Assembly: GCA_023701075.1 (NCBI GenBank)
Contig: JAMPXQ010000017.1
Span: 1-15,898, forward strand
From: Candidatus Woesearchaeota archaeon
Lineage (GTDB): Archaea; Nanobdellota; Nanobdellia; Woesearchaeales; GW2011-AR15
DNA length: 15,898 nucleotides
Direction: 5' to 3'
The notes beneath the pieces were generated by a model. It had not been told where the DNA came from and searched no databases. It saw only the letters and a program-made list of their open reading frames with translations. Of this stretch, positions 9,463 through 14,288 are shown piece by piece; within the stretch, counting starts at the first letter, position 1; each line of letters starts with the position of its first letter. The position numbers and the translations under genes were made by a program.

Positions 9463-10233
9463 ATGGCAAGCATTGAAATGCTTTCAAAAAAAGAGAACAA
9501 AGCAACTTTTCTCCTAAAGAAAAGTTCACCAGCTTACAGCAATGCACTCAGGAGAATCATGCTGACTGAAGTTCCAGTGATGGCAATGGAAGACATTGAA
9601 ATCAGAAAGAACAGTTCAGCCATGTATGATGAGATATTGACGCATAGGCTCGGACTCATACCACTCACAACAGACCTAACTTCATATGAGCTGCCAAAGA
9701 CACAGGCAGACATAGACGAAAAGAAAGCAGTGTGCACATTGGAACTTACGCTAAAGGAAAAAGGCCCAAAGACAGTCTATGCATCAGACCTCAAGAGCAA
9801 GGATCCAAAAGTGAAACCAGTTTATCCAAAGATGCCAATCGTGAAACTCCTAAAAGACCAGGAGCTAGAGATTGTTGCAACAGCTGTCCTAGGAAAAGGG
9901 AAGGACCATGCAAAATGGAGCCCAGGGCATGTCTGGTACAATTACAGCCCAAAGATCACAATCAAAAAAAGCAAGGATCTAGAGAAATACAAGGATATGT
10001 ATCCACCACAGATATTCAACAAGAAAGGAGAGATAGAGGAGAAGCTGATACTTGATAACAATCTGGTTGACGCTGTCGCAAACATCAATCCAGAGATAAT
10101 CAAAGTGGAGTATGATGAGACAGAATACATATTCAATTTGGAGTCATGGGGGCAATTGCCACCAAAAGAGATGATCAGCGAAGCATTAAACATACTCAAT
10201 GCCAAGCTTGATGAGCTCAATAAATTGATTTAG
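9463..10233 (+). CDS. rpoD: DNA-directed RNA polymerase subunit D (Rpo3)
   Basis: Assembly platform subunit equivalent to bacterial alpha and eukaryotic RPB3. The N-terminal dimerisation domain is clear: ATFLLKKSSPAYSNALRRIM, then LTEVPVMAMEDIEIRKNSS and HRLGLIPLTTDL (61-72). The central insert (about 90-195) contains EIVATAVLGKGKDHAKWSPG. The region holding the [4Fe-4S] cysteines in some archaeal Rpo3 proteins is present as YPPQIFNKKGEIEE but has no cysteine; the only Cys in the protein is at 91. A cluster is therefore not expected here. The C-terminal part (ESWGQLPPKEMISEALNIL) returns to the dimerisation fold. It sits at the usual archaeal place between rps11 and tRNA-Leu/eL18. Confidence 0.95.
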   Translation: MASIEMLSKKENKATFLLKKSSPAYSNALRRIMLTEVPVMAMEDIEIRKNSSAMYDEILTHRLGLIPLTTDLTSYELPKTQADIDEKKAVCTLELTLKEKGPKTVYASDLKSKDPKVKPVYPKMPIVKLLKDQELEIVATAVLGKGKDHAKWSPGHVWYNYSPKITIKKSKDLEKYKDMYPPQIFNKKGEIEEKLILDNNLVDAVANINPEIIKVEYDETEYIFNLESWGQLPPKEMISEALNILNAKLDELNKLI

Positions 10234-10242
10234 CCACTCAAT

Positions 10243-10355
10243 GCGGGGGTGGCAGAGCCTGGAGGCCATGAGAAATCAGGGCCGGGCAACCAAATGCGCA
10301 AGGTTGAGGGCCTTGTCCCATAGAGGGTGCGCGTGTTCGAATCACGTCCCCCGCA
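10243..10355 (+). tRNA. tRNA-Leu (anticodon GAG) with a D-loop intron
   Basis: Begins nine bases after the rpo3 stop. The acceptor stem gcggggg (10243-10249) pairs fully with cccccgc (10348-10354); A73 is 10355 and CCA is not encoded. The anticodon arm is caagg-ttgaggg-ccttg (10299-10315) with anticodon GAG at 10306-10308. The T arm is gcgtg-ttcgaat-cacgt (10331-10347). The class II variable region (10316-10330) fits leucine. The D stem gca/tgc (10252-10254 and 10295-10297) is split by a 27-nt insertion after the GG of the D loop. The total is 113 nt; removal of 10263-10289 leaves 86 nt with the normal Leu D loop. Confidence 0.92.
10263..10289 (+). other. Noncanonical 27-nt tRNA intron in the D loop
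   Basis: The sequence folds as a relaxed bulge-helix-bulge. gcct (10257-10260) pairs with gggc (10284-10287), with one G-U. A 3-nt bulge gga (10261-10263) follows on the 5' strand, then an inner ggcc/ggcc helix (10264-10267/10280-10283) with a 12-nt loop. A second 3-nt bulge aac (10288-10290) lies on the 3' strand. Cutting after the second base of each bulge, as the archaeal splicing endonuclease does, removes exactly 10263-10289 and joins GG to CCAAA. The outer helix is replaced by the D stem beyond an internal loop, so this is not a strict motif. Confidence 0.75.
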
Positions 10356-10393: not shown

Positions 10394-10412
10394 AAAAACA
10401 CAGGGTGTTTTT
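10394..10412 (+). promoter_or_regulatory. Perfect leader hairpin before eL18
   Basis: aaaaacac and gtgttttt form an 8-bp perfect inverted repeat with a three-base agg loop, ending five bases before ATG 10418. The only Shine-Dalgarno-like bases, agggtg (10402-10407), lie in the loop and 3' arm, so folding would hide them. The T run in the 3' arm also resembles a terminator. Attenuation or translational control is possible. Confidence 0.4.
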
Positions 10413-10417
10413 AAGAC

Positions 10418-10765
10418 ATGAAAAATACACAATTAACGCAACTAATAATGGAGCTGAAAAAGGCATCGATAGAACAGGATGTCGCTATCTGGAAAAGGGT
10501 AGCAACTGACCTAGAGAAGCCTACAAAGCAGAGAAGGATAGTGAACCTGTCAAAGATCGACAGATACTGCAAGGATGATGAGACCATTGTCGTCCCTGGT
10601 AAAGTGCTCTCAATGGGCGACCTTAAGAAGAAGGCGACAATTGCAGCTTACAACTTTTCAGGAAATGCAATGGACAAGATCAAGGAAGCCGGCGGTAAGG
10701 CTATTTCAATTCAAGAGCTTTTGAAAAAGAATCCGAAAGGAAACAAAGTGAGGATATTAGGATGA
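10418..10765 (+). CDS. rpl18e: 50S ribosomal protein L18e (eL18)
   Basis: Large-subunit protein shared by archaea and eukaryotes. The 115 residues start MKNTQLTQLIMELKK and show IWKRVATDLEKPTKQRR, VNLSKIDRYCKDDETIVVPGKVL and the ending GNKVRILG, all typical of this family. The central region is related to the uL15 fold. Length is normal for the archaeal form. It follows the tRNA-Leu as in other archaea and overlaps the rpl13 start by four bases (ATGA). An inverted repeat covers its leader. Confidence 0.94.
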   Translation: MKNTQLTQLIMELKKASIEQDVAIWKRVATDLEKPTKQRRIVNLSKIDRYCKDDETIVVPGKVLSMGDLKKKATIAAYNFSGNAMDKIKEAGGKAISIQELLKKNPKGNKVRILG

Positions 10766-12706: not shown

Positions 12707-13213
12707 ATGAAAAAACCTATCTTTTTTGTCTTAATTTTAGGAATGCTGATCTCGCTTTTCCTGCTATATGAACATTTCACGCCTTCTGCATCAAAGTTCT
12801 GCACGTTCGGCAATAATTTCGATTGCGGCATCGTGAACAAGAGCCCTTATGCAAATGTTGACGGGCTATCATATCTCCTTACTATCGATCTTGGGCTCAA
12901 TCTTCCAATAGTAGATCTGGCTGGCATAAACTGGTTCTTTGACCTTATGACTTCCAATGCGTTCCTCGGTTTATTGACGCTCATATTCATGGGGCTGCTG
13001 TTTGATTCGTATTTCAAGAAAAAAGACTTCTTTTTCATCAAGAAGAAAGCCACCATAGTCTGGCTTAGGTATATCACCCTGTTCGGCGTGTTCTACGGAG
13101 GATACCTGTTCTTGGTGCAGCACTTCATCCTCAAGACGTACTGCATATTCTGCATTGCTCTTGACGTGGTCTTACTAACATTATTCATCTTGACATGGAG
13201 GCTTAAAAAATGA
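12707..13213 (+). CDS. Vitamin K epoxide reductase (VKOR) family disulfide-forming membrane protein
   Basis: Quinone-linked membrane oxidase that generates disulfide bonds, the functional counterpart of DsbB. The 168 residues form four or five helices. The loop after the first helix carries Cys32 and Cys40 (KFCTFGNNFDC) followed by the conserved Ser46-Pro-Tyr-Ala. The active site CxxC is TYCIFCI with Cys146 and Cys149 at the outer end of the last helix. All four catalytic cysteines and the serine are present. No thioredoxin domain is fused; instead a separate thioredoxin-like lipoprotein gene overlaps its stop by four bases (ATGA), a usual VKOR partner. Electron acceptor (a quinone) is inferred from the family. 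Confidence 0.93.
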   Translation: MKKPIFFVLILGMLISLFLLYEHFTPSASKFCTFGNNFDCGIVNKSPYANVDGLSYLLTIDLGLNLPIVDLAGINWFFDLMTSNAFLGLLTLIFMGLLFDSYFKKKDFFFIKKKATIVWLRYITLFGVFYGGYLFLVQHFILKTYCIFCIALDVVLLTLFILTWRLKK

Positions 13214-13572
13214 GATACCTTGCTTTGCTTGCATTACTGATCATTGCCGTATCTGCGTGTTCGACACAGAAAGTGCCGCAGGAACAGGTGGATGAATTTG
13301 CAAAATGCCTCACTGAAAAGGGAGTCACAATGTATGGCACTTTCTGGTGCCCGCACTGTGCCAGGGTCAAGAAAAACTTCGGACCTTCTTTCCAATATGT
13401 CAAATATGTAGAATGTGACGCAAGAGGAGACAATGAGCAGTCTGAATTTTGCATAGAGAAGAAGATAGAGAACTATGCTACTTTTGAATTCGCGGATGGC
13501 ACCAGAGAAGTTGGAGAGCCTACTTTTGAAACCTTGGCCATAAAGAGCGGCTGCAAGGTTCCGGGGCAGTAA
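13210..13572 (+). CDS. Thioredoxin-like lipoprotein, VKOR partner, lacking the cis-proline
   Basis: 120 residues. The N-terminal signal ends in a lipobox-like AVSAC with Cys17, suggesting lipid anchoring on the outer face. The active site is WCPHC (Cys47 and Cys50), after TMYGTF as in VKOR-associated thioredoxins. Further cysteines at 33, 69, 81 and 115 could form structural disulfides. Where thioredoxin-fold proteins have a cis-proline (usually YPT), this protein has NYATF with Ala90; that residue governs substrate release, so the change is notable. It should shuttle oxidising equivalents from VKOR to exported proteins. It overlaps the VKOR stop by four bases and is followed two bases later by ccdA. 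Confidence 0.9.
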   Translation: MRYLALLALLIIAVSACSTQKVPQEQVDEFAKCLTEKGVTMYGTFWCPHCARVKKNFGPSFQYVKYVECDARGDNEQSEFCIEKKIENYATFEFADGTREVGEPTFETLAIKSGCKVPGQ

Positions 13573-13574
13573 AA

Positions 13575-14288
13575 ATGGCAGCTGTCACACTCCCGACCTG
13601 GCCGGTAGTCATAACAACTGCGCTTGTAGATTCAATCAATCCGTGCGCAATAGGCGTCCTTGTCATAATGATTGCAACGCTCTTAAAACTCTCTAAAGAC
13701 AAGAAGAAGATGCTGGCCATCGGCTCGATATACATAACCACTGTCTTCATCACTTATCTCGCTGCTGGTTTTGGACTCCTGACATTCATACAGAAGTTCC
13801 CGGGCATCAGCATATACCTAGGCTGGACAGTAGGTGTGATTGTAATTCTCATGGGACTCATCGAAATAAAAGATTTCTTCTGGCATGGGAAATGGATATC
13901 ATTACAGATACCTGCAAAGCATGCGAAGACCATCATGAACAAGATAAATAATCTTACTATAGGAGGCAGCGTGTTTTTAGGCATGTTCGTCGCTGCAGTC
14001 GAACTTCCTTGCACAGGAGGGCCTTACCTTGCCATAACCACTGCTCTTGCAAAAATAGGGATGAGCTGGAATGTGTTCTGGATGATGGTGATCTATAATT
14101 TCATATTCGTGCTTCCGCTCATAGTAATCATGATGATGGTCTATTTCGGCGTCAATCCTGATAAGATAAAGAACTGGAAGGATGACAAGAAGAGATGGAT
14201 GAGGCTTTTCACTGGCTTATTATTGATAGGGCTTGGAGTGCTATTAATACTCTTTGCGAACGGTGTGATACACCTCAGCGTAGGATGA
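13575..14288 (+). CDS. ccdA: CcdA/DsbD-type transmembrane thiol reductant carrier
   Basis: Moves reducing equivalents from cytosolic thioredoxin across the membrane to outer thiol proteins. The 237 residues make about six helices. The two redox cysteines stand in the expected motifs, SINPCAIG (Cys24) in the first helix and ELPCTGGPY (Cys146) in the fourth, with pseudo-twofold symmetry and the surrounding prolines. A charged loop from about 99 to 125 separates the halves. No periplasmic domains are fused, as in CcdA rather than DsbD. The gene starts two bases after the lipoprotein stop. With VKOR oxidising and CcdA reducing, the operon holds both directions of thiol transfer. Confidence 0.9.
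   Translation: MAAVTLPTWPVVITTALVDSINPCAIGVLVIMIATLLKLSKDKKKMLAIGSIYITTVFITYLAAGFGLLTFIQKFPGISIYLGWTVGVIVILMGLIEIKDFFWHGKWISLQIPAKHAKTIMNKINNLTIGGSVFLGMFVAAVELPCTGGPYLAITTALAKIGMSWNVFWMMVIYNFIFVLPLIVIMMMVYFGVNPDKIKNWKDDKKRWMRLFTGLLLIGLGVLLILFANGVIHLSVG

Follow-up and report, generated by a model that had tools for sequence, protein, structure and literature searches.

Here we report that the tRNA-Leu(GAG) gene of an archaeon which, judged from its RpoD relatives, probably belongs to the order Woesearchaeales very probably contains a noncanonical intron of 27 nt in its D loop, at tRNA position 19/20 (10263-10289), which would be cut out by the splicing endonuclease EndA, the exons then being joined by RtcB, and which belongs to a set of introns recurrently gained and lost; we hold this joint reading with high confidence. 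The gene lies in a window of 15,898 nt, that is, the whole stretch of DNA analysed, which is contig 59 of a 1.26-Mb, 76%-complete genome in 157 contigs (G000). All coordinates refer to this window, and the tRNA with its parts, rpoD and rpl18e are on the + strand. The intron itself belongs to a known class of noncanonical archaeal tRNA introns, and the point of interest is the pairing of such relaxed introns with an enzyme type that is called strict in reviews.

The precursor (10243-10355, 113 nt, no encoded CCA) begins with the acceptor stem (GCGGGGG/CCCCCGC) at 10243 and ends with the discriminator A at 10355. It comprises the complete set of parts of a class II tRNA-Leu(GAG), including an anticodon arm with the anticodon GAG (10306-10308) and the variable and T arms, plus 27 surplus bases in the D loop. 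Removal of these bases leaves 86 nt, made up of a 5' exon (10243-10262, tRNA positions 1-19) and a 3' exon (10290-10355, positions 20-73). The spliced form differs at 2 of the 86 positions from the intronless tRNA-Leu(GAG) found at the same place in a genome of the same genus (G001), the 5' exon being identical at 20/20 positions and 10291-10355 being 98% identical. The D loop restored in this way would read AGCCTGGCCAAATGC, and the tRNA-Leu(TAA) of this genome (locus L023) has an identical one. The earlier note had proposed a 27-nt noncanonical intron with exactly these ends, shortening the gene from 113 to 86 nt and restoring a normal Leu D loop, and the 84 matching positions as well as the shared D loop bear this out. 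A second tRNA-Leu(GAG) was not found in the 76%-complete G000. With introns allowed, ARAGORN named locus L026 Leu(gag), which was taken, from its anticodon arm, for a misread interrupted tRNA-Ile(GAT), and L028, named Ser(gga), was read in the same way as tRNA-Arg(GCG) with a D-loop intron.

The unspliced gene was missed by ARAGORN and by Rfam at the gathering cut-off, and the tRNA lists for this woesearchaeal group may therefore be short. When the 27 nt are taken out, ARAGORN reports tRNA-Leu(gag) with a score of 118. The intron models of tRNAscan-SE, as described in a section of PMC8450103, were built from Crenarchaeota/Euryarchaeota and Thaumarchaeota. A group I intron was rejected, since 27 nt is too short and no Rfam match at the gathering score covers the intron (the sole match at that score in the window is a tRNA-His); PMC6125680 places all of its 39 group I introns from archaea, some of them woesearchaeal, in rRNA genes.

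The gene is located within the order rpsM-rpsD-rpsK-rpoD-tRNA-Leu(GAG)-rpl18e-rpl13-rps9. The rpoD gene, encoding RNA polymerase subunit D (9463-10233; NF001988, 3.2e-83), stops 9 nt upstream of the tRNA, and rpl18e (10418-10765; NF003079, 8.3e-45) begins 62 nt downstream of it. These two genes were checked with NCBIfam, and the remaining names in the operon were taken from the translations. In addition, a perfect 8-bp hairpin, AAAAACAC-AGG-GTGTTTTT, was noted by eye at 10394-10412, with its end 5 nt ahead of the rpl18e start codon; it might serve in termination or in the control of translation, and a consensus scan for terminators gave none there. Three adjoining ORFs at 12707-14288 resemble, by eye, a disulfide-forming set, with VKOR-like, thioredoxin-like and CcdA/DsbD-like members.

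A splice motif is located at the ends of the intron. When the D-loop stretch is folded to minimum energy, the exon bases gcct (10257-10260) pair with the intron bases gggc (10284-10287), next to which are the 3-nt bulge gga (10261-10263) and an intron hairpin, GGCC.UGA(GAAA)UCA.GGCC (10264-10283). The predicted cuts fall after the second base of gga and after the second base of the unpaired aac (10288-10290), that is, two bases off the 4-bp central helix. With the cut fixed there, 4/4 central and 4/4 inner pairs occurred in 0.04% of 20,000 dinucleotide shuffles of the intron (P 0.0004), and the energy of the D-loop fold is moderately better than that of shuffles (z -1.39 for 46 nt and -2.61 for 36 nt). 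When the whole 113-mer is folded, the minimum-energy structure keeps the intron hairpin but has other pairings in place of the central helix. In the canonical hBHBh' motif each bulge sits between two helices; here no exon helix lies beyond the 3' cut (0/4 outer pairs), and the motif is therefore a relaxed one, of HBh' type, and falls short of a full bulge-helix-bulge. Consequently, from the bulge-helix-bulge model put forward in the earlier note, the gcct/gggc helix, the gga bulge and the cut sites can be kept, while aac is not a helix-closed bulge.

In the proposed mechanism, the bases G15-C16-C17-U17a of the precursor D loop would pair with GGGC near the 3' end of the intron, and this central pairing would present two cut sites, one between GG and A and the other between AA and C. 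EndA would cut at both, RtcB would join G19 to C20, and the D loop would refold after joining. While the anatomy, the boundaries and the comparative support come from the present analysis, we infer cleavage and ligation from the known archaeal pathway, and the cut order and the oligomer state likewise. RtcB is present in G001, G002 and G005; among these four genomes it was not found in G000, which is put down to the incompleteness of that genome (76%).

Then, which type of EndA could act on such an intron? The earlier note had expected an epsilon2 or alpha-beta enzyme. However, the one EndA gene found in G000 encodes 178 aa with both EndA domains (PF02778 and PF01974); alpha4 enzymes likewise have single-unit chains, about 180 aa long, that combine an N domain and a catalytic domain. 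An epsilon2 enzyme, with three fused units and about 390 aa (395 aa in 4fz2), does not fit the 178-aa ORF, and as regards the alpha-beta type no beta gene was detected in the 16 order genomes chosen for this search and the crenarchaea-specific loop (CSL) is absent. Across the order, PF01974 matched in 178 of 192 sampled genomes and was absent from 14, with two matches in six. The order's own EndA profile gave two full-length copies in G005 and in G043, one full and one nearly full copy in G080, one full and one partial copy in G127, partial matches on two contigs in G045 and in G110, and two partial matches in G007. Where the second copy is matched in full, its score (238-319 bits) is in the range of the alpha gene. 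In G005, G043 and G080 the two full or nearly full copies sit on different contigs, and the second ones could be true duplicates or come from mixed strains.

The stretches FRVY, HA[KR]W and RVAHST[KR]K, which we take to hold the catalytic Tyr, His and Lys, are kept in all 28 aligned proteins of the order (L070, L079 and L091 of the 31 loci gave no ORF by motif and were left out). Compared with the profile of 17 order proteins, 2cv8, presumably the S. tokodaii EndA, has 10 extra residues after 'fGkll', containing K-P-K. At this place, that of the CSL, a short loop occurs in 8/8 proteins of family f1. The woesearchaeal loop also falls about 3 residues short of that of the ARMAN-2 EndA (4fz2). 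K37 of the window's EndA aligns with the loop Lys K161 of ARMAN-2, and such a Lys occurs in 3 of the 28 order proteins, the window's included; a conserved Lys replacing that of the CSL or ASL is thus not order-wide, and K37 may, as a weak lead from the alignment, leave room for an ASL-like role in the window's species. The ASL and the CSL, the latter with K-P-K, are both described in PMC12397907. In length, the acidic L10 stretch equals that of M. jannaschii EndA (1a79), and the N. equitans alpha chain (3iey_A) has two residues fewer there. Judged from these alignments, the window's EndA would be a homomer, most likely alpha4, with neither CSL nor beta subunit.

The most serious competitor leaves the intron as it is and assigns it to a heteromeric EndA, whose beta subunit would be too divergent to be recognised or would lie in the missing part of the genome; we consider this compatible with the intron reading, and unlikely. 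It draws on the 76% completeness of G000 and on the nearest solved EndA, which is the N. equitans catalytic subunit, the solved complex of which holds a divergent chain, NEQ261. In addition, PF01974 alone detects a second gene in one of three genomes of genus g154 used as controls. The order's own profile, however, recovered a second match in all three controls (25 bits and E 4.5e-6 in G203; 14 bits and E 0.009 in G213; a 20-residue piece with 15 bits and E 0.02 in G219), and with the same profile, at E<=10, a single EndA gene and no beta partner was found in each of 16 chosen order genomes. These were picked mainly for few contigs and include G000, G001, the one-contig G002 and G019, with a one-contig genome of the same genus that carries a D-loop intron in the set. 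NEQ261 itself scores 69 bits with the order's profile; therefore a partner like NEQ261 should have been seen, while one that has diverged far more might escape detection. Moreover, the acidic L10 stretch that is shortened in the N. equitans alpha is kept in the woesearchaeal proteins.

As for the exact position of the insert, the intron of G005, a genome of the same family, is informative. Its tRNA-Leu(GAG) has a 30-nt intron exactly at 19/20, with an unlike hairpin and with the same ends as in the window, GCCU-GG before the first cut and GGGC-AA before the second. The inner helix begins one base later, giving a 4-nt 5' bulge, with a strict score of 4/4 and 2/4 (shuffle P 0.017; 0.044 by sum). 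The possibility that the boundaries in the window are one base off (10264-10290, giving A20) arises since ARAGORN accepts both spliced forms and so leaves the boundary uncertain by one base; the splice motif fixes it. Such a shift is very unlikely, for it departs from the rule that cuts lie two bases from the helix, the same-genome tRNA-Leu(TAA) has a C at this place, and the aligned cut in G005 gives U20.

Introns at the same site were also found in other tRNAs. In G000, tRNA-Arg(GCG) has 4/4 and 4/4 pairs (P 0.001), with GAGC in place of GGGC, and folds as expected, with an energy not better than that of many shuffles (27/200); tRNA-Ile(GAT) has 3/4 and 3/4 pairs (P 0.019; 0.028 by sum) and a minimum-energy fold lacking the expected central helix; and tRNA-Arg(TCG) has 4/4 and 3/4 pairs, keeps GGGC as does the G005 Leu gene, and carries an additional anticodon-loop intron of about 46 nt. 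In G002, tRNA-Ile(GAT) has 4/4 and 3/4 pairs. It should be noted that the anticodons and intron boundaries of these Ile and Arg tRNAs were set by eye, and that ARAGORN names two of them differently. The cases with 3/4 and 2/4 pairs are singly weak, and it is on the shared site together with the shared ends that the case rests. G002 also shows, by eye, a further D-loop insertion in tRNA-Val(TAC), and most of the introns seen in it are located in the anticodon loop. No tRNA-Leu(GAG) was found in G002 at E<=0.01 or directly behind rpoD, and G002 is therefore unusable as a control for this tRNA.

Some repeats and motifs around the tRNA genes were noted as well. A repeated element like GCTTGA.CGAAG.GAAAC, possibly a tRNA-tail repeat, was seen by eye directly behind tRNA genes (Asn, His and others) of G002 at L205, L208, L210 and L211, with less similar copies at L220 and L227. 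At L026 and L027 (G000) and L048 (G014), an exact or near copy of the tRNA 3' end lies roughly 100-150 bases further downstream (ATCTGGTCGGGCCCA behind tRNA-Ile is one example), which looks as though small elements had inserted at tRNA ends. Some long anticodon-loop introns of G002 (L213, L218, L221) contain, by eye, (G)ATGATGA or GTGATGA, which in our view resemble box C of C/D guide RNAs.

That the insert is a D-loop expansion retained in the mature tRNA is highly improbable: the insert does form a self-contained hairpin, but the same-place genes of relatives have no insert (G001, and G007 of the same family) or a different one (G005), the splice motif is located at the insert boundary, and similar motifs in other tRNAs of these genomes bound anticodon-loop introns, which are necessarily removed. 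We give practically no credence to a decaying pseudogene with a random insertion, which could account for the failure of ARAGORN and Rfam on the unspliced gene and is opposed by intact stems, by 84/86 kept positions and by the fact that this is the sole tRNA-Leu(GAG) found in the genome, at its common place.

How common this place is, and how often the D arm is interrupted, can be seen from 110 rpoD loci, namely 30 of 39 places in 38 of 40 relatives' genomes (the window included) and the best 80 named ones of 271 RpoD relatives, which are mostly titled Woesearchaeota and otherwise Nanoarchaeota, Nanoarchaeia or archaeon; the two sets overlap, were picked by RpoD likeness and are not an even sample. 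With an alignment score cut of 100, tRNA-Leu(GAG) lies within about 640 bases behind rpoD at 96 of these loci, redundancy included, and 14 are without it. The location within a ribosomal protein operon, pointed out in the earlier note, is thus real, but it is not special to the intron, and since the tRNA occupies this place with or without one, a link with ribosomal protein expression is not supported as intron-specific; nor would the tie of splicing to mRNA release, as envisaged in that note, be peculiar to the intron. The 96 loci collapse to 77 distinct precursors. Insertions of at least 6 nt, one or several, interrupt 42 of the 77; an anticodon-loop intron is present in 22 and a D-arm intron in 18 (19 introns, with L036, which has two, counted once), the sites by our own labels being 21/22 (n=11), 15/16 (n=4), 19/20 (n=2) and other (n=1). 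The view that D-loop introns are mainly crenarchaeal, taken in the earlier note, is therefore unfit here. In 16 of the 19 D-arm introns both the central and the inner helix reached 3/4 pairs or better (L030, L041 and L100 fall below) when the best cut within 8 bases was chosen, which favours the motif.

On a quick RpoD tree, in which 28 of 74 inner branches are open, the presence of a D-arm intron takes no fewer than 12 changes, and that of site 21/22 no fewer than 10, and the tree thus indicates that D-arm introns are gained or lost repeatedly among the relatives. Site 19/20 takes one change, with G005 and the window adjacent at a weak support of 27; consequently, their shared site can be one old gain, the hairpin having since diverged. 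Among the survey loci, L036/L104 have two introns in one D arm (15/16 and 21/22; 44 and 25 nt), and T-arm insertions occur in the tRNA-Leu(GAG) of L053, L118, L131 and L171, besides a D-arm intron in L131 and an anticodon-loop intron in L171. L115 (JAFCCF010000002.1) is titled Candidatus Aminicenantes bacterium and holds an archaeal rpoD-tRNA-Leu region whose RpoD is 49% identical to that of the window; the record is probably mislabelled or a mixed bin.

The woesearchaeal introns are similar to the HBh'/hBH introns of Crenarchaeota, Thaumarchaeota and N. equitans, that is, short, located outside 37/38, with a relaxed motif and several per genome, some tRNAs having more than one. ARMAN, small archaea that are placed with DPANN, provide a second parallel. 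According to PMC4033280 and PMC12397907, ARMAN-1 and -2 have relaxed motifs at various positions and an epsilon2 EndA, a three-unit chain unlike the single 178-aa alpha unit of the window. The crenarchaeal, thaumarchaeal and N. equitans hosts have two-protein enzymes according to PMC3218864, whereas only alpha-type EndA genes were found in the Woesearchaeales host. Korarchaeum, in PMC4033280 the sole alpha2 host named for noncanonical introns, likewise combines such introns with an EndA of the homomeric kind proposed here; however, this is credited there to a specific loop of its enzyme, and the insertion was not seen in the woesearchaeal proteins. The M. jannaschii homotetramer (1a79) shares the single-unit alpha chain, the absence of a long insertion and the aligned acidic L10 stretch, but alpha4 enzymes of this type are reported as strict in passages of PMC4090602 and PMC4033280, and the woesearchaeal introns are relaxed.

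PMC4090602 calls alpha4 and alpha2 enzymes strict and alpha2beta2 enzymes lenient, and lists intron positions 20/21 and 22/23. Passages of PMC6379350 limit efficient removal of relaxed motifs to (alpha-beta)2 and epsilon2 enzymes; they also describe an A. fulgidus alpha'2 enzyme that can excise a bulge-helix-loop intron at 37/38 when given a full-length precursor, and they call the (alpha-beta)2 enzyme of M. kandleri, which has no such loop, constrained. PMC3218864 records noncanonical positions for korarchaea and for three thermophilic methanogens, so that noncanonical introns beside a one-protein enzyme seem not wholly unprecedented, and a table in PMC4033280 includes Methanothermobacter among the hosts of multi-intron tRNAs. 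In the open-licence literature, no paper was found that treats tRNA introns of Woesearchaeota or DPANN by its title or the start of its abstract.

Given that reviews, in the parts cited above, call alpha4 and alpha2 enzymes strict, either this rule fails in Woesearchaeales or a partner subunit has been missed. We lean slightly towards the former: a homomeric alpha-type EndA with no CSL, no ASL and no beta subunit would then splice the relaxed HBh' introns of Woesearchaeales, both those in the D loop and those at other places. If this is true, relaxed specificity would need none of the known specificity devices, and the published rule that links architecture to specificity would not hold in a large archaeal order whose D-arm introns recurrently arise and vanish. 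At stake is whether the introns that an archaeon can keep are really dictated by subunit architecture and by lineage-specific loops.
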